DNA of 64,000 nucleotides from a virus: the IMG/VR virus record IMGVR_UViG_3300009128_001551, positions 33,254 through 97,253 of that record. One strand, 5' to 3'. The position numbers and the translations under genes were made by a program. Shown here piece by piece: positions 21,907 to 38,069 of the stretch (positions within the stretch are counted from its first letter, which is position 1; every line of letters begins with the position of its first letter). Below the pieces are notes generated by a model, which saw only the letters and a program-made list of their open reading frames with translations, did no database searches and had not been told where the DNA came from.

Positions 21907-23223
21907 ATGGGTGACTATAGTGACGTAATGAGGCAAGTGGCAGAGTCTCTTGTGTCGATGTCAGATGGCACTGCAGCAGACTATGGGTCTAGAGTTCACA
22001 TAGATGACTTAGAGTCTATGATATCAAGATTAATTCTCGTAAAAAACTCTTTGAGAAAAGGCCCTAATAGGCTGAAGCATAGAAAAGAGATGCATAGAAT
22101 TCAAGATGCCATAGGTGCCTTAAGATATCTAAAGAAAGTAGCAGAGAGAGAAGGGATAAAATCAGGAATTCTGAAGGAGGGTGGTCTCAAGGCCCCTCAT
22201 CTCACATCTCATGTAAAGATCGATCCAGAGATAGTTTCAATGACATTTGACGTCTATAGGATTGTCATTGACATGTGGAATAAGCATCTTGAGTCTGAAG
22301 GAATGGAAGCCGTCAAGGTGGTGACTACTGTGGGATCATCTTACTATCATCTTGTTGACGATCCCGATGCAGAGTATGGTGACATAGACGTATCAGTGTC
22401 ATTTCCTGTTGGTGTCGAGTCTGGTGCATCACCTGATGAGATAAGGAAAGCAGAAAACCTGACAAAGAAGAAGTATGTCTCTTCATTGATTGATTTTTTA
22501 AACCAGTCTGTTGAGATTGAAAAATATGTTAACACTGCAGCAACTCTTCATGGAGCAGATAAAAACCCAGATTCAGCTCTTTTGCTCATACTGAGACTGC
22601 CAAGCGGTGATCACGTTCAAGCAGATACGATTGTTACATTTCCGCTCTATGTAAAAGAGGACGATTCATCTCAAGATGAGTCGGGATGGATGCCGTGGAG
22701 ATGGATTCCTGAAAAAGGGAAGAAGGGATATACGATAGGAAATCTCTATACAGCACTTGGAAGCTATTTCAACATGTCAATAGGAGACAGAGGCGTTCTT
22801 GCAAAGGTAAGAGACGGTGAGATAGTTCCGTTTAGACAGAGAAAAGATACATCTTTGGTCTTGGTTAGCAAGAATATCAAAACATTTTTACGAGATATTG
22901 CAAGGGAATTTATTGGTGATGAGTTTACAGAAAATGAATTATTGACACAATATCCCGGTGTTGACCCTAAAGATATCACAATCAGAAGTCTATCTCTTGG
23001 AATAAAGGGTCTTGCACTGACACTTGCTGAAAATGATGTGATATCATCTTCTAATGAGATGCTTGATGAAATTCTTGTGCTGTATAAAGACGGCTTAAGA
23101 AAGAACATTGATAAAAAGCTTTCTCTTGGAATAGATGATAAAAAATATAAACAACTTGAAAGATTAAATGATAGTGTTCTAAGCATCGTAGGGGATATCT
23201 TTAGCATGAATGGAAAGCAATAG
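21907..23223 (+). CDS. Pol-beta-superfamily nucleotidyltransferase-like protein
   Basis: 438 residues. Around residues 140-162, VTTVGSSYYHLVDDPDAEYG followed by DIDVSVSF matches the hG(S/G)...DhD signature of the DNA polymerase beta nucleotidyltransferase superfamily, with metal-binding Asp residues in GDIDV. A further Asp in HVQADTIVTF (about 240) could be the third. Helical N- and C-terminal regions flank it. GGAGG precedes ATG 21907. It is coupled to the phosphoesterase gene next and then to the giant nucleotidyltransferase/ligase gene, so the three likely work together, perhaps in nucleic-acid end repair or RNA modification. Confidence 0.6.
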   Translation: MGDYSDVMRQVAESLVSMSDGTAADYGSRVHIDDLESMISRLILVKNSLRKGPNRLKHRKEMHRIQDAIGALRYLKKVAEREGIKSGILKEGGLKAPHLTSHVKIDPEIVSMTFDVYRIVIDMWNKHLESEGMEAVKVVTTVGSSYYHLVDDPDAEYGDIDVSVSFPVGVESGASPDEIRKAENLTKKKYVSSLIDFLNQSVEIEKYVNTAATLHGADKNPDSALLLILRLPSGDHVQADTIVTFPLYVKEDDSSQDESGWMPWRWIPEKGKKGYTIGNLYTALGSYFNMSIGDRGVLAKVRDGEIVPFRQRKDTSLVLVSKNIKTFLRDIAREFIGDEFTENELLTQYPGVDPKDITIRSLSLGIKGLALTLAENDVISSSNEMLDEILVLYKDGLRKNIDKKLSLGIDDKKYKQLERLNDSVLSIVGDIFSMNGKQ

Positions 23224-23867
23224 TGGATTTCTTTACAGCAGACACGCACTTTAGCCATAGGAATATCATAAAGTACTGTGATCGTCCATACGACAGCGTT
23301 AATCAGATGAATGATTCGTTAATTGACAACTGGAACAGTGTTATAACAGACGATGATAGGGTTTTTCTTGTAGGAGATGCATTTCTTAGAGGGTGTGACG
23401 ATCCAAAAGGTATAATAGACAGATTAAATGGATATAAGATCCTTATAAAAGGAAACCATGATCAGTCTAAAAGAAGAATGATCGAAGCAGGGTTTGATGA
23501 ATATCATCGATCTATAGAATATGATATGCCGTGTGGAAAAAATGCCCTGGTCCAGCATCACCCCCTTCCTGAGCCTCTCTTTGAAAGATTTGACGTATTA
23601 ATTCACGGACACATCCACAAGGGAGAAAGGGTTCGAGGTGGCAGGGTGAATGTCTGCTCAGACTTATGGAACTATACACCTGTTTCAATTGATGAAATAG
23701 CGATGCTAAATGTTAAAAAGTGTGGAGATGACAATGTGTGGTGTGATAGTCATGTAAGCGGAAATATGATTAGGTCTCACATCGCTGTGCATGTTCATGA
23801 TTTTTCAGGTGTCATTGAACATATTTATTCAACGATAAACAGATCACAGGACGGAAGGAATAAATGA
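23223..23867 (+). CDS. Calcineurin-like metallophosphoesterase
   Basis: 214 residues with the full metal-site series: DTHFSH (DxH), GDAFLRG (GD), KGNHDQSK (GNHD), VQHHPLP and HGHIHKG (GHxH). Family enzymes hydrolyse phosphomonoesters or diesters, including nucleic-acid ends. GTG 23223 overlaps the preceding stop and its own stop overlaps the ATG of the giant gene. A second phosphoesterase is at 60151-60879. Confidence 0.88.
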   Translation: MDFFTADTHFSHRNIIKYCDRPYDSVNQMNDSLIDNWNSVITDDDRVFLVGDAFLRGCDDPKGIIDRLNGYKILIKGNHDQSKRRMIEAGFDEYHRSIEYDMPCGKNALVQHHPLPEPLFERFDVLIHGHIHKGERVRGGRVNVCSDLWNYTPVSIDEIAMLNVKKCGDDNVWCDSHVSGNMIRSHIAVHVHDFSGVIEHIYSTINRSQDGRNK

Positions 23868-26800
23868 AATTAGGTCTCTATGGTGGTGGATTTAAACCGT
23901 TTCACACGGGTCACTTTTCAAAATTGCTTCTTGCTTTAGGTGAGAATGATAAGGTTCTTTCTTTTTTTGGGATTCAAAAGCAAAAGCTAAATAAAAAAGG
24001 AAAGCCTTTAAAAACAAAGTTTAGAACATTTGGAGATACAGGCAGGCTATATACTGAACCTCTCCAGGACGCTGTATTTGCTGTGTATGAAAAAGCATTA
24101 CAGGATAGATATCCTGACAAGCTTGATGTGATTTCTGCAAAGCACACGTCTCCAATCAATAATATTCACAATATTCTTGACAGGTTCGCATACGCCCATC
24201 TAACAGATGAAGAAAGAAAGAGAGCTAAAGACGAGGCAGGACAGTCAAGAAACCCGGCGCTTGCAGTTGGAAATCTCACGACAAAACATAGCAGTCCTGA
24301 GGGTGACATAGATCTATCTGCAGTAGATAGCATAACCGTGTATGCAGGAGACGATGAGATAAACTCATATGCCTTTTTGTTAGGAATGAAAAAAAGGGCT
24401 GAAAGAGGTGACGCAGTCATCGGAGAAAAGGTGTATGAGCTAATTGACAAAGGAAAGATATCATTTAAATCAGGCATGTCTAATGTATCGGACCTCGTAA
24501 ACCTATTGAAAGATTATCATCCAGACGCATCTGAGGAGATGATCAATGTTAGGGGAACTGACGTTCGAGGGTTCATTGGCTCTGGTGACATCGAGTCATT
24601 TAAGAGATATCTTCCGGGTGTTTTAAGCGATGCTGAAAAAGACGAGATTGTCAAGATAATTATCAGTGATGAAAATGTCAGTGAGTCACGTTTATCATCA
24701 GCTATAAGCAGCTCAACGATTCTAAGGGCAGCATCTAGATTTACTGCGATGAAATCGATTAGAGAGGCAACATCGAGACCAGAAGGTCACATCCCGGGCC
24801 TAACTGAAGATATGAATCTTACGTTTGATAATCTGAAACAGCTAATAGAGGATGTTCTTAGCGGAAGAATTGATCACATCGAGGAAAAGATGGATGGTCA
24901 AAATTTCACATTTACAGTTTTAGACGATGGCGAAATACGACAGTACGGAAAAGGTCCAAGAGTTTCTACTCTTGAAAAAGGCGGAAAGGGAAGAGATGAC
25001 ATAAGAAACATTCAGACGTGGGGAGAAAAGACAAAAGATGCATTTGCCTCAGCCTATGATGTCTTAGATGAATATGTAAAAAAGCTAGACATAAACAAAG
25101 TAAGACAGTTATTTTTAAATGGTAAGGTTGTTGTAGAGGGTCAGATACTCACACCAATAAACCCCAACACGATTCCCTATACTGAGAATCACTTTAGATT
25201 TATAAGACCTTCATCTCCATATCCAGATATCGACATAGATGTTGATATATACAATGACCTCTTTATGAATGATGATATTGAGATACAGGATAATTCTGAC
25301 AGATCGTGGTCTGTCGGTACAGTTCCTAAACTAGAGCAGACAAAGCAGGTCGCATCAGAGATAATAGGCCAGATAAATGAGCTCAAAGGTGAAATTGATT
25401 CACTTTTAAAAAGATTTGATCACCCACCCAAGACAGTAGGTGAGTATGCAACGCTTGTGATGAAAGACTATCTAAGTCACTATGCTCCTGAGCTAGATAG
25501 CATGCCTGATGACATACGAACCAGGGCAGTTCATCGACTTTTAGATAAATTTCACGTAGGCTCTGAAAAGTTTATAGAAAAAAGAATTTCAAGTCGAGAA
25601 ATGGATTCTGTTCACTGGAAGGTATTTCAAAAAATTGATAAGATGGCAACAGCACACGTTGTTGCTGCAATTGTTGATCTTGAAAAAATTATTCAAAAAT
25701 TAGGATACTATTTCTTTGAGACGCTAGAATTTACCTTGGCGACAAATGACGGTGTTACAGCTGATCTCGCAAGCGAGGTTGATAGAATACAAAGTGCGTT
25801 ACAGTCTAGCACCATACATGTAAGGAATGTTGAAAGTGGTGAGATAAGCGACATCGTTGACACAGCCTGGGCAACAAAGCTAGATACGTCGATTTCACGA
25901 GTTGAACAGATGTCTATGTTTAAAAAGGCTGTTGAGGGTGTCGTCCTCAGGCTCCCAGGAAAAGAGGGTAGAGATATATCTGTTAAGTTAACAGGAATGT
26001 TTACACCGGTCCATAGGCTTGTAACGCTGTTTAGATATCCGTCTAGGGGTGAAGTTCTTTTTATTGATGAACCTGAAGATGTAAACATGTCTGACTCTGA
26101 TGAAGAGGCGCTATCAGAAGCTTTAAAGATATTTAAAAAGATCTTGTCTGAAGGAGGAAAGGCCTTCAAGAGATCGATAATTGATGCCGACGGAAAGAAG
26201 AAAAAGGTTGTTGTCACATCACAGGAAAAGATATCTAGGGACCAGGCAAACAGACTTATCTCATCGTTAAAAAAGAACGTCTTAGATCCTCTTGGAATTG
26301 ATCTCAACATAGAGAAAAGTGAGTCTGGAAATAGCCTTCTTGGAAGCACGGGAACAGATGCAGACATCTTGGGTGATATAGACTTGCTGGCAGTCATTAC
26401 AGATGACATGATTGACAAATATTCTAGCGATGTAGAAGAGCTAAGGCAGCAGAGAAAAAAGAAAAAGAGGAAAGATGATCCTGTAAAGGAAACACTAGAG
26501 GCAATGCTTCGTAGTTCACCGTTCCTGCAGAAAGAGCTGGTGCCAGGGGTTTCTAACATTGTTGTCGGAGGAAGCATGGTGAGTGTAATGCTTAGAGATC
26601 CTGATTCTGATGACAGTAGTGCTCCTCTGCAAGATGAGCTATTTCAAATAGATCTTGTCTCTGAGAGACCTGAACATGCTGGTGATACATGGTGGGAGTT
26701 AAGGGGCGGACATAAGGGAAAGGTAAAGGGTGTGTATAGAAATCTGATGCTATCTCTTCTTGCAAACATCACGGGAAGAAGCAGAACAACGCCTGACGAT

Positions 26801-27961
26801 GTCGTAAAGGTGACATTAAGATGGCCAGGAGGATATACAGAAAATATAAACGGTGAGGAGGTTAAGAGGATCAGAGATCCAGATGAGTATCTTCCGCTGA
26901 TAGGCTTGAGCGGCATTGATAAGTTTAAAATTGACTCATTTGAAGAGCTAGTCGATCACATGTCAAAGTCTAATGATGAAATACTGTTGCAGGCGTTAGA
27001 TGAATTTGAGGAATATCTTCCTGGATACCTGCCGGCTGAGGAGTCTGAAAGGGCTGTTAGTTATGTCAATCAGTCGATGTCGTCAGCTTTGTCTGAGTCA
27101 AAGGTGAGATCACTCATCAAAGAAGCAATTATTAAACTAGGAGATGACGCATTTGACATGTCAGACCTAGAGGTGCTCTCTGTTATAAAATATATTAGAG
27201 ACGATCTAAAGATTGATAAGTTTACGCCTGAGTCTGGATTTGAATCGTTTCTACTAATGCTGGATGATACAAATGCTGAAAGGGTGAGAAATGTGATGAA
27301 AAACTCCATACCAAAAAGTCTACAAACAGTTACAATGGAAATCCTGTCACAACTCCGCGGCAATATAAACAGCGCTCTCTTTTCAGCTACACCCGGCGAG
27401 AGAGTTATAGTTCCTGAGGAGCTTCTACCTCTTGCTGAGTATAGATCGACAAGAAGAGGAGGAAGTCAAACAGGTGCCGGTGAATTGATTGTTCCATTTT
27501 TATTTAACGATGCCAGTGTTTCAGTCGGCACAGCTCCATTTGATGTTACAATAGGCGGATTAAACTGGGAGGTTAAAGCAGCAAAAAAGTCAAATGGAAT
27601 AAAGCTAGGATCAGCAAAGGGAAAAAAGGTTTTAGACGGAAGGCTTTACAAGAGATTGATGTCCCTGGGCCTTTATCACAGCGACCTTAGTGATATCGGT
27701 TCAGTGGCCTTAAAGTCATTTGCACGTGATGTTGTAAGTCAATTCTCTATAAAGGATGATACCGGCGACGTAATAGAGACGGCTGAGAGATTTTTAGATG
27801 TCTTGTCTCAAGACGCCAGAGACACAGCATTGAAGGATGTTGAGGGAATTATCTGGTATCACAAGGGAAGGCTTTCGTTTACTCCTAAAGAGAGGCTATT
27901 TGTTAAGAGAACAACGCAGGGAAGATATGTTGTGTACGAGAAGGCTGTAAGTGCAAATTAA
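23864..27961 (+). CDS. Giant multidomain protein: HxGH nucleotidyltransferase + KxDG ligase-like + Pol-beta-like nucleotidyltransferase + possible PD-(D/E)XK
   Basis: 1365 residues. (1) Residues 1-280: cytidylyltransferase-type, MKLGLYGGGFKPFHTGHFSK with the HxGH site. (2) Residues about 335-700: nucleotidyl-ligase-like, EEKMDGQNF (KxDG, Lys 342), GKVVVEGQILTPINPN, EGVVLRLPGK (about 691) and VKLTG, matching motifs I, III/IIIa, IV and V of ATP-dependent DNA/RNA ligases. (3) Residues about 820-960: SLLGSTGTDADILGDIDLLA, Pol-beta-like. (4) Residues about 1080-1100: LSESKVRSLIKEAIIKLG, like the recurring N-terminal peptide. (5) Residues about 1220-1240: PFDVTIGGLNWEVKA, a D...ExK arrangement. It is coupled to a phosphoesterase and a nucleotidyltransferase. 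Related HxGH-plus-ligase proteins occur in marine phages as I recall; the four-part arrangement is unusual. Confidence 0.7.
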   Translation: MKLGLYGGGFKPFHTGHFSKLLLALGENDKVLSFFGIQKQKLNKKGKPLKTKFRTFGDTGRLYTEPLQDAVFAVYEKALQDRYPDKLDVISAKHTSPINNIHNILDRFAYAHLTDEERKRAKDEAGQSRNPALAVGNLTTKHSSPEGDIDLSAVDSITVYAGDDEINSYAFLLGMKKRAERGDAVIGEKVYELIDKGKISFKSGMSNVSDLVNLLKDYHPDASEEMINVRGTDVRGFIGSGDIESFKRYLPGVLSDAEKDEIVKIIISDENVSESRLSSAISSSTILRAASRFTAMKSIREATSRPEGHIPGLTEDMNLTFDNLKQLIEDVLSGRIDHIEEKMDGQNFTFTVLDDGEIRQYGKGPRVSTLEKGGKGRDDIRNIQTWGEKTKDAFASAYDVLDEYVKKLDINKVRQLFLNGKVVVEGQILTPINPNTIPYTENHFRFIRPSSPYPDIDIDVDIYNDLFMNDDIEIQDNSDRSWSVGTVPKLEQTKQVASEIIGQINELKGEIDSLLKRFDHPPKTVGEYATLVMKDYLSHYAPELDSMPDDIRTRAVHRLLDKFHVGSEKFIEKRISSREMDSVHWKVFQKIDKMATAHVVAAIVDLEKIIQKLGYYFFETLEFTLATNDGVTADLASEVDRIQSALQSSTIHVRNVESGEISDIVDTAWATKLDTSISRVEQMSMFKKAVEGVVLRLPGKEGRDISVKLTGMFTPVHRLVTLFRYPSRGEVLFIDEPEDVNMSDSDEEALSEALKIFKKILSEGGKAFKRSIIDADGKKKKVVVTSQEKISRDQANRLISSLKKNVLDPLGIDLNIEKSESGNSLLGSTGTDADILGDIDLLAVITDDMIDKYSSDVEELRQQRKKKKRKDDPVKETLEAMLRSSPFLQKELVPGVSNIVVGGSMVSVMLRDPDSDDSSAPLQDELFQIDLVSERPEHAGDTWWELRGGHKGKVKGVYRNLMLSLLANITGRSRTTPDDVVKVTLRWPGGYTENINGEEVKRIRDPDEYLPLIGLSGIDKFKIDSFEELVDHMSKSNDEILLQALDEFEEYLPGYLPAEESERAVSYVNQSMSSALSESKVRSLIKEAIIKLGDDAFDMSDLEVLSVIKYIRDDLKIDKFTPESGFESFLLMLDDTNAERVRNVMKNSIPKSLQTVTMEILSQLRGNINSALFSATPGERVIVPEELLPLAEYRSTRRGGSQTGAGELIVPFLFNDASVSVGTAPFDVTIGGLNWEVKAAKKSNGIKLGSAKGKKVLDGRLYKRLMSLGLYHSDLSDIGSVALKSFARDVVSQFSIKDDTGDVIETAERFLDVLSQDARDTALKDVEGIIWYHKGRLSFTPKERLFVKRTTQGRYVVYEKAVSAN

Positions 27962-37399: not shown

Positions 37400-37627
37400 A
37401 TGGTTGTAGGAAGTCTTGTAAGACTGTCTGAGTCTGCGATGTTATCAGCCGGTTGGGAGCCTAGTGCTTCACCTGGCGGGATGTACGGGATAGTGATCGG
37501 CTCAGATATCATGCAGATGGATGAGAAGTTTCCTGAGATCATGATAGTTATGGTGTCAGGAAAATCTGAGATGTTCTTTAGGGAGGACCTTATTTTAATT
37601 GGAGAAAGCTATGGGCAAGAAGTGTAG
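37400..37627 (+). CDS. Small SH3-like hypothetical protein
   Basis: 75 residues. VVGSLVRLSE is a variant of the GDLVR opening of the barrel family at 56-63 kb, followed by GGMYGIVIGSDI and a strand-rich remainder. No ribosome site; a leaderless transcript is possible. It overlaps the next gene by 17 bases. Confidence 0.45.
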   Translation: MVVGSLVRLSESAMLSAGWEPSASPGGMYGIVIGSDIMQMDEKFPEIMIVMVSGKSEMFFREDLILIGESYGQEV

Positions 37628-38069
37628 AGATACTGTGGCAGTAAGCGGAGGATTTGATCCGATTCATGTTGGTCACGTTAGGATGATATTAGATGCGGCG
37701 AGGCACGGAGAGGTGATAGTGATCCTTAATAGCGATAGGTGGCTTAGAAATAAAAAAGGATATGTGTTCATGCCTTGGGATGAGAGGGCAGAGATATTGC
37801 GATCAATCAAGGGAGTTGTGGATGTCGTGTCAGTTAATGATAGTGATAGAACAGTATGCGATGCGCTAAATACGCTAAAAGAAAGTGTTGATCTTACGTA
37901 TTTTGCAAACGGGGGTGATAGAATTAACACAAACACTCCTGAAATTAGCATATGTAAAAAGTTAGGAATTGATCTTCTGTGGAATGTTGGTGGAAAAAAG
38001 GTGCAAAGTAGTAGCACACTTGTCAATGACCACAGAGGAATGAGAGATAAAATAGAGGACAAGAAATAA
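37611..38069 (+). CDS. Cytidylyltransferase-like nucleotidyltransferase
   Basis: 152 residues from ATG 37611 (GGAG upstream). SGGFDPIHVGHVRMI holds the HxGH motif and FANGGDRINTNTPE plus VQSSSTLVND resemble the ISSTxI-like C-terminal motif. Family members make CDP-glycerol, ADP-heptose or FAD. Substrate not determinable; a sugar or lipid head-group role is possible, as the phage also has an epimerase and cupin. Confidence 0.82.
   Translation: MGKKCRDTVAVSGGFDPIHVGHVRMILDAARHGEVIVILNSDRWLRNKKGYVFMPWDERAEILRSIKGVVDVVSVNDSDRTVCDALNTLKESVDLTYFANGGDRINTNTPEISICKKLGIDLLWNVGGKKVQSSSTLVNDHRGMRDKIEDKK

Follow-up and report, generated by a model that had tools for sequence, protein, structure and literature searches.

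The gene described here occupies positions 23864 to 27961 of a 64,000-nucleotide stretch of viral DNA (the window, that is, the whole stretch that was analysed; record positions 33254-97253 of a 97,253-base IMG/VR virus record, G000). It comes from a marine phage and encodes a single protein of 1365 amino acids (aa) in which four modules are joined by three linkers. We propose, with a probability of roughly 0.55, that this fusion is a head-packaged multi-enzyme precursor for the repair of nucleic acid, probably RNA, a reading in which packaging, cleavage, delivery and substrate are all steps that we infer. The open reading frame (ORF) and its parts are laid out as follows, with the evidence for each in brackets.

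23864..27961, + strand: ORF of the four-module fusion, 1365 aa (orthologues L006, L008 and L092)
23864..24673, + strand: HxGH (HIGH-superfamily) adenylyltransferase domain, residues 1-270 (model, fold search, profile match)
24674..24781, + strand: linker 1, residues 271-306, with IRE/A at 299 (model confidence below 50, motif scan, split genes)
24782..26044, + strand: Rnl1-like nucleotidyltransferase/ligase, residues 307-727 (conservation, weak Pfam RNA_ligase match, fold matches)
26045..26155, + strand: linker 2, residues 728-764, with LSE/A at 750 and LSE/GG at 761 (model confidence below 50, motif scan)
26156..27058, + strand: Pol-beta superfamily domain, residues 765-1065 (invariant residues, model, fold search)
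27059..27151, + strand: linker 3, residues 1066-1096, with LSE/S at 1076, IKE/A at 1085 and an internal tag-like segment (motif scan)
27152..27958, + strand: C-terminal module, residues 1097-1365, with a nuclease-like motif E1207 / D1227 / E1236-V-K1238 (motif alone)

The ORF is intact, starts with ATG, has a 4-nucleotide overlap with the preceding gene at that gene's stop, and reads MKLGLYGGGFKP at its N-terminus, which directly enters the HxGH domain. It is a real gene, kept by syntenic relatives. An earlier reading of the letters (hereafter the original prediction) had described a 1365-residue ORF with a series of enzyme motifs, and these are found where it had placed them: HTGH at residues 14-17, EEKMDG at 340-345 (including K342), EGVVLR at 691-696, GSTGTDADILGDID at 827-840, LSESKVRS at 1076-1083, and WEVK at 1235-1238 with D1227 upstream. 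The nuclease and tag parts of that prediction proved weak, as described below.

By fold, the first domain is a NadM-type HxGH adenylyltransferase, with nicotinamide mononucleotide (NMN) as its predicted substrate. An AlphaFold model of residues 1-740 (28 sequences; mean predicted local distance difference test score, pLDDT, of 77.8) resolves two domains with confidence, with residues 271-306 disordered, and within residues 1-270 the pLDDT is mostly 65-93. Foldseek matches this domain to NadM, NMN adenylyltransferase (NMNAT) and phosphopantetheine adenylyltransferase structures at probabilities of about 1.00 (NadM 2qjo_C: expect value, E, 1.8e-4, probability 1.00), and a profile match to NadM reaches E 0.0014. 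Against the viral models of BFVD, cytidyltransferase-like proteins of uncultured phages match much of residues 1-740. The features characteristic of the NMNAT/PPAT type of the HIGH superfamily are present, namely a Rossmann-type domain with HxGH and, as the second motif, S/G-T-x-V-R, here V-R-G-T-D-V-R at residues 229-235, and both GGFKPFHTGH and VRGTDVR are conserved among relatives. The HxGH site of the original prediction is thus upheld by fold and by its conserved flanks, but the label 'cytidylyltransferase' gives way to a likeness to NMN and phosphopantetheine adenylyltransferases. The fusion shares fold and HxGH motif with the NMN adenylyltransferase/Nudix protein NadM (PDB 2qjo); it lacks the Nudix domain of that protein and has a ligase as the partner instead. 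Elsewhere in the window, apart from the fusion, lies a short second HxGH nucleotidyltransferase gene (GGFDPIHVGH; 37599-38069).

Residues 307-727 are supported, by conserved motifs and more modestly by model and fold comparison, as a nucleotidyltransferase/ligase closest to T4 RNA ligase 1, and the activity is predicted. Motif I is EEKMDG (340-345, with K342), motif III lies near 417-429 in a region that aligns across ligase relatives, motif IV is EGVVLR (691-696), and motif V is KLTG (708-711). Conservation among 28 relatives reaches 90% or more at K342, D344, G345, E691, G692, K708-LTG and other positions. Once the HxGH matches are set aside, T4 Rnl1 is the best PDB match for residues 1-740 (Foldseek probability 0.63-0.75), and several phage RNA ligases are matched by fold in BFVD. 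The Pfam RNA_ligase match (E 5.5e-4, 20.6 bits) is below the curated cut-off of 27, and for this reason we file the domain as Rnl1-like rather than as a member of that family. This match begins at EEKMDG, so that the ligase lysine can be placed, and the conservation and fold matches bear out the KxDG and EGVVLR motifs that had been proposed. A match of the A6 profile to pneumococcal PspA was dismissed as coiled-coil-like chance.

For residues 765-1065, a Pol beta/lambda-like domain with predicted nucleotidyltransfer activity is likewise supported. The site comprises GST (827), D838-I-D840 and QID930; GST...GDxD (with D838 and D840) and a third aspartate, D930, are invariant in five orthologues. 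In a model of residues 728-1365 this part has a pLDDT mostly of 55-90, and all of the best 50 PDB matches in a fold search are DNA Pol beta or lambda (top E 8.2e-5, probability 1.00), such that G-S, D-x-D, a third aspartate and the palm fold of the superfamily are all present. A Pfam sequence search of this domain did not recognise Pol-beta, and RlaP was not among the Pfam hits of the whole protein or of domain 3. The second nucleotidyltransferase fold that had been foreseen from the motif is present.

The C-terminal module is compatible with a PD-(D/E)XK enzyme and may be called nuclease-like by motif. When this tail is shuffled, the D...EVK pattern by itself arises in 5.5% of cases. Each of nine orthologous tails, which comprise four unrelated sequence types, contains it at least once (9/9, versus 3-19% of shuffles). 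Neither the tail of the fusion nor those of its relatives matched Pfam or PDB profiles, even with a six-member alignment, and the model is of low confidence from about residue 1077 on (pLDDT about 22-39 in the tail). Consequently, the PD-(D/E)XK nuclease of the original prediction stands at the level of a motif, without profile or fold support. Two candidate tail matches were set aside: one in an Enterococcus phage record (H29) was chance, inside an arginine-deiminase-like ORF, and a weak local match to L092 fell in the N-terminal part of that relative.

A full-length search of 50,697 annotated phage records (INPHARED) returned no full-length relative, and a search of viral contigs with the single fusion protein found nothing. 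An alignment of the ligase domain, seeded from three weak hits, was needed to open the family. With this alignment, at least 484 family stretches were confirmed, among the first 600 viral-contig candidates; there were only two matches in about 85,000 prokaryote genomes, both of them in metagenome-assembled genomes. The HxGH and ligase pair is accordingly a large, widespread and poorly annotated phage family, fused in 18 of the 23 non-redundant complete relatives found by the ligase search. Microcystis phage Mel-JY01 (WWT39297, 'cytidylyltransferase like protein') and the huge-phage homologue LR756508 each encode HxGH and a ligase of this family as a single chain, and in the huge phage LR756500 they are two adjacent genes. 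All three lack the C-terminal extension of Pol-beta and nuclease-like modules, and their ligase half is unannotated. In LR756500 (L003:7935-11193), the ligase gene adjoins a 653-aa gene that ends in an HxGH domain and starts with a ligase-like stretch, SENLDGSTVYVQKID, which may be a degenerate second ligase. A literature search for fusions of HxGH enzymes with RNA ligases turned up related reviews and, in the portions of them covered, no such fusion.

The closest relative, L006, is 45% identical over fusion residues 1-1069 and is syntenic; L008 and L092 likewise comprise all four modules. Gene order around the fusion is shared by L006, L007, L008 and L009, and in L006-L008 the syntenic stretch begins at about 17 kb, takes in GroEL and reaches as far as the sigma factor. 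Among these and other relatives the modules vary at their joints. In L007 and L009, HxGH is a separate gene directly upstream, and the split falls at linker 1; these separate genes end in a tag-like helix (EAYLRYLIRGIIRG and EAYLRAFVRSVIRG) and are followed immediately by the start of the ligase gene. The domain order in L058 is ligase, Pol-beta, HxGH (L058:2854-7674, a 1606-aa relative with a Pol-beta-like GST...NDID, a ParB-like stretch and repeated segments of the form NPxTGxxIxVxTAL). In L095 (5230-5970), the ligase/Pol-beta joint, which corresponds to linker 2, accommodates an additional domain of about 220 aa that matched nothing in Pfam or PHROG. The C-terminal module is swapped among orthologues. 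These splits, reorderings, insertions and tail swaps indicate that the modules are units which phages separate, rejoin and trade at the joints.

The joints are also where motifs for a phage head protease accumulate. T4 gp21 cleaves after L/I-x-E (PMC9026906), and all five [IL]xE[GAS] sites of the fusion fall in its three linkers. The bounds of linkers 1 and 2 were taken from low model confidence, with no reference to the motif, and those of linker 3 from the end of Pol-beta homology. Across nine orthologues, the linkers carry 23 sites where shuffling predicts 5.3, versus 11 (19.7 expected) in domains 1-3 and 3 (9.5 expected) in the tails, counts that are descriptive since orthologues share descent. 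Among 23 non-redundant family members there are 10 sites in the N-terminal 25 aa (1.1 expected), 21 in the 25 aa before the ligase (2.5 expected), and 5 in the ligase interior (18.6 expected). Control motifs [IL]xD[GAS] and [IL]xK[GAS] exhibit neither effect, and [IL]xD[GAS] has no sites at all at the N-terminal and pre-ligase positions. Sites of the (I/L)-x-E type therefore stand where cuts would be expected in a head-packaged precursor. Ahead of the ligase the motif most often reads LxEGG, at a near-fixed spacing (-7) relative to where the ligase starts, and the Pol-beta domain, too, begins with LxEGG or IxEGG. Where the GG is lost before the ligase, as in the fusion (IREA) and in L006 (IKES), the I-x-E-(A/S) pattern stays.

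A second set of signals consists of short helical tags. Eight proteins of the window share an N-terminal helix tag, LRxxIRxxLxE:

14906, 15615, 18170, 28210, 32351, 35795, 52600 and 53728: starts of ORFs with the shared N-terminal tag

Similar tags start small proteins between the protease and scaffold genes in L088, so that in this phage group the tag may direct proteins to the head core. Small tagged proteins sit between those genes on the 160-kb contig of the closest relative (G001). The neighbouring tagged proteins that were compared with PHROGs gave no informative match. A tag matrix was built from the eight N-terminal tags. In L090 and L091, the two best matches to it in the whole protein are at the ligase/Pol-beta and Pol-beta/tail joints, and in L095, L092 and L006 the first or second best is at the Pol-beta/tail joint. 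The internal boundary tag of the original prediction thus fails in the fusion itself, where it scores at chance level, but is found in relatives at the homologous joint.

Head genes of the T4 type occur in relatives of the fusion. A T4-type Peptidase_S77 protease is present in the records of 18 of 30 relatives and a gp23 capsid in 14 of 30; contig G001 encodes both. The capsid proteins of G001 and Mel-JY01 carry LREQ and ISEA near residue 60, about where T4 gp23 is cut. The HxGH-ligase gene of Mel-JY01 precedes the large terminase gene by about 2.6 kb and the protease gene by 8 kb, and it is also upstream of the capsid genes. Internal proteins of T4 bear a 10-residue N-terminal targeting sequence that is later removed (PMC9026906), and many N-termini of the HxGH-ligase family, such as MNELTKFLVE/S, have the shape of this propeptide. 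HxGH/NMNAT-like proteins have been reported in virions of the T4-like cyanophages S-CREM2, S-CBWM1, S-SZBM1 and S-SCSM1, with contamination not excluded by the authors (PMC10665884). One of these, the S-CREM2 (Synechococcus phage) cytidylyltransferase gp154, was detected by mass spectrometry and likewise starts like a T4 propeptide (MKNFSSFLTE/A). It is a single-domain protein of 286 aa in which we saw no ligase or Pol-beta part.

These observations suggest to us the following scheme. The chain would consist of an NMNAT-like adenylyltransferase, an Rnl1-like ligase, a Pol-beta-like nucleotidyltransferase and a nuclease-like tail held together by disordered linkers, and it would be drawn into the prohead through tags. 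A T4-type prohead protease would cut the linkers to release separate enzymes, which would be delivered along with the genome and act early in infection. Together with the phosphoesterase encoded next to the fusion, the ligase and Pol-beta-like units could mend nucleic acid cut by host defences, and the NMNAT-like unit could supply NAD+ or activate a substrate. RNA, probably tRNA, seems a more likely substrate than DNA, given the Rnl1-like ligase, the phage tRNA genes, and the RNA-repair sets of ligase and Pol-beta enzymes known in phages (PMC7824862). The original prediction had offered a repair machine or a polyprotein cut into enzymes; the linker sites, the modular relatives and the protease of the closest relative make this the leading idea, with cleavage as its presumed step. 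We advance more tentatively, at somewhat short of even odds, the fuller proposal that this is a head-loaded four-enzyme polyprotein for which the prohead protease is also the activator of an injected repair and counter-defence kit, and that HxGH and ligase share an undescribed pathway of activation and sealing.

Several observations weigh against a head-packaged, cleaved precursor for RNA repair. Packaging in the head and cutting at the linkers are, for this protein, predictions from sequence. No Peptidase_S77 prohead protease was found in the 97-kb record, which may be a fragment. The fusion has no N-terminal capsid targeting sequence, such tags being internal or in relatives, and its internal tag segment scores 6.0 bits, below the 7.6 bits that is the median of the best scores obtained when the protein is shuffled. 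The control [IL]xQ[GAS] is also depleted inside the ligase, the frame-shifted control [IL]xxE[GAS] is also enriched before it, and the motif occurs within domains of some orthologues (IAEGF, LVEGV). The LxEGG that precedes the ligase and Pol-beta could be a structural element of these domains. As for the substrate, the fold support for an Rnl1-like ligase is modest, the fold matches of domain 3 are DNA polymerases and lean away from RNA, and the Pol X-like fold and the nuclease-like tail keep DNA ends open as a target.

The protein might instead be an uncut cytoplasmic repair enzyme, in which LxEGG caps the ligase and Pol-beta folds structurally at their N-termini, the linkers serve as hinges and the fusion holds end-processing, gap-filling and ligation together during infection. 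The steady spacing of LxEGG from the ligase start fits this proposal, as do L007 and L009, where ligase, Pol-beta and tail remain fused despite the separate HxGH gene. Such an enzyme would also resemble the pairing of a ligase with the Pol-beta nucleotidyltransferase RlaP known from phage RNA repair (PMC7824862). We nevertheless consider it unlikely, given that LxEGG stands before two unrelated folds, that I-x-E-(A/S) persists where GG is lost, that the whole motif (unlike the aspartate control) is depleted inside domains, and that tags lie beside the sites and at the termini of split genes. A machine for joining DNA ends, similar to LigD or to a Pol X enzyme with a ligase, would trim, fill and seal the ends of the injected genome or of restriction-cut DNA. 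The DNA Pol lambda/beta matches of domain 3, the nuclease-like motif and the phosphoesterase neighbour would suit such a role. The many Pol beta entries in the PDB may bias those matches, however, and the fold of the ligase resembles those of T4 Rnl1 and several phage RNA ligases, with a weak match to Pfam RNA_ligase besides, which makes this the proposal that we find quite improbable.

Virion-borne counter-defence cargo accommodates packaging and differs in giving the modules unrelated targets: the NMNAT-like unit would restore NAD+ drained by NADases, the ligase and nucleotidyltransferase would mend tRNAs, and the tail would attack host nucleic acid. NadM is the top fold match of domain 1, NMNAT-like proteins are reported in cyanophage virions (PMC10665884), and the tail is exchanged between relatives. 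Polyvalent proteins, moreover, join unrelated activities and lie near late genes (PMC5512222). We regard this possibility as rather unlikely, since the NMN specificity of domain 1 is itself a prediction and the prevalence of the HxGH/ligase fusion among relatives (18/23) fits one shared pathway better than mixed cargo.

Compared with known systems, a four-module chain with cleavage-like linkers would extend the set of virion-delivered phage enzymes. T4 internal proteins and Alt have the L/I-x-E cleavage motif in common with the fusion (PMC9026906), which differs from them in comprising several enzymes, in its internal linker sites and in lacking an N-terminal targeting sequence. Phage RNA-repair systems with ATP-grasp RNA ligases and RlaP pair an RNA-ligase-like with a Pol-beta enzyme (PMC7824862); the fusion has no Pfam RlaP match and includes HxGH and tail modules in the same chain. 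Polyvalent proteins of phages and conjugative elements also have many enzymatic domains per chain and a proposed early-infection role with processing, which is attributed mainly to zincin-like metallopeptidase domains (PMC5512222), whereas the sites of the fusion fit a head protease. When the literature was searched for phage polyproteins that a prohead protease cuts, no paper reporting such a case came up. The analysis also brings out a ligase family, hundreds of members strong and nearly confined to phages, that carries no annotation. If the precursor reading is correct, T4-style targeting of single proteins would widen to the delivery of entire enzyme pathways in a single chain, the sparsely annotated 'cytidylyltransferase-like' proteins of T4-like phages would be tied to nucleic-acid repair, and LxE in linkers but rare in domains would serve as a sequence rule to find head-packaged cargo of uncultured phages.

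Two genes directly upstream of the fusion belong to the same conserved neighbourhood.

23223..23867, + strand: calcineurin-like phosphoesterase (PHROG phosphoesterase, E 4.6e-42)
21907..23223, + strand: separate 438-aa gene with the Pol-beta-like motif GSSYYHLVDDPDAEYGDIDVSV (motif, synteny)

The phosphoesterase gene also adjoins the fusion in L006, L007 and L008, and gene order around the 438-aa gene is kept in the same three relatives, which indicates that two Pol-beta-like domains exist side by side in these phages. The 438-aa protein has LKE/GG at residue 89, ahead of its motif. DnaJ-, DnaK-, GroEL- and sigma-70-like genes were recognised by eye on the window and record, which also carry five tRNA genes. 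Upstream of the window (L086:7620-9831, in G000), a RecA/UvsX-like gene is apparently broken by an intein-like stretch in another frame, and this interrupted gene is followed by a possible homing-endonuclease-like gene.

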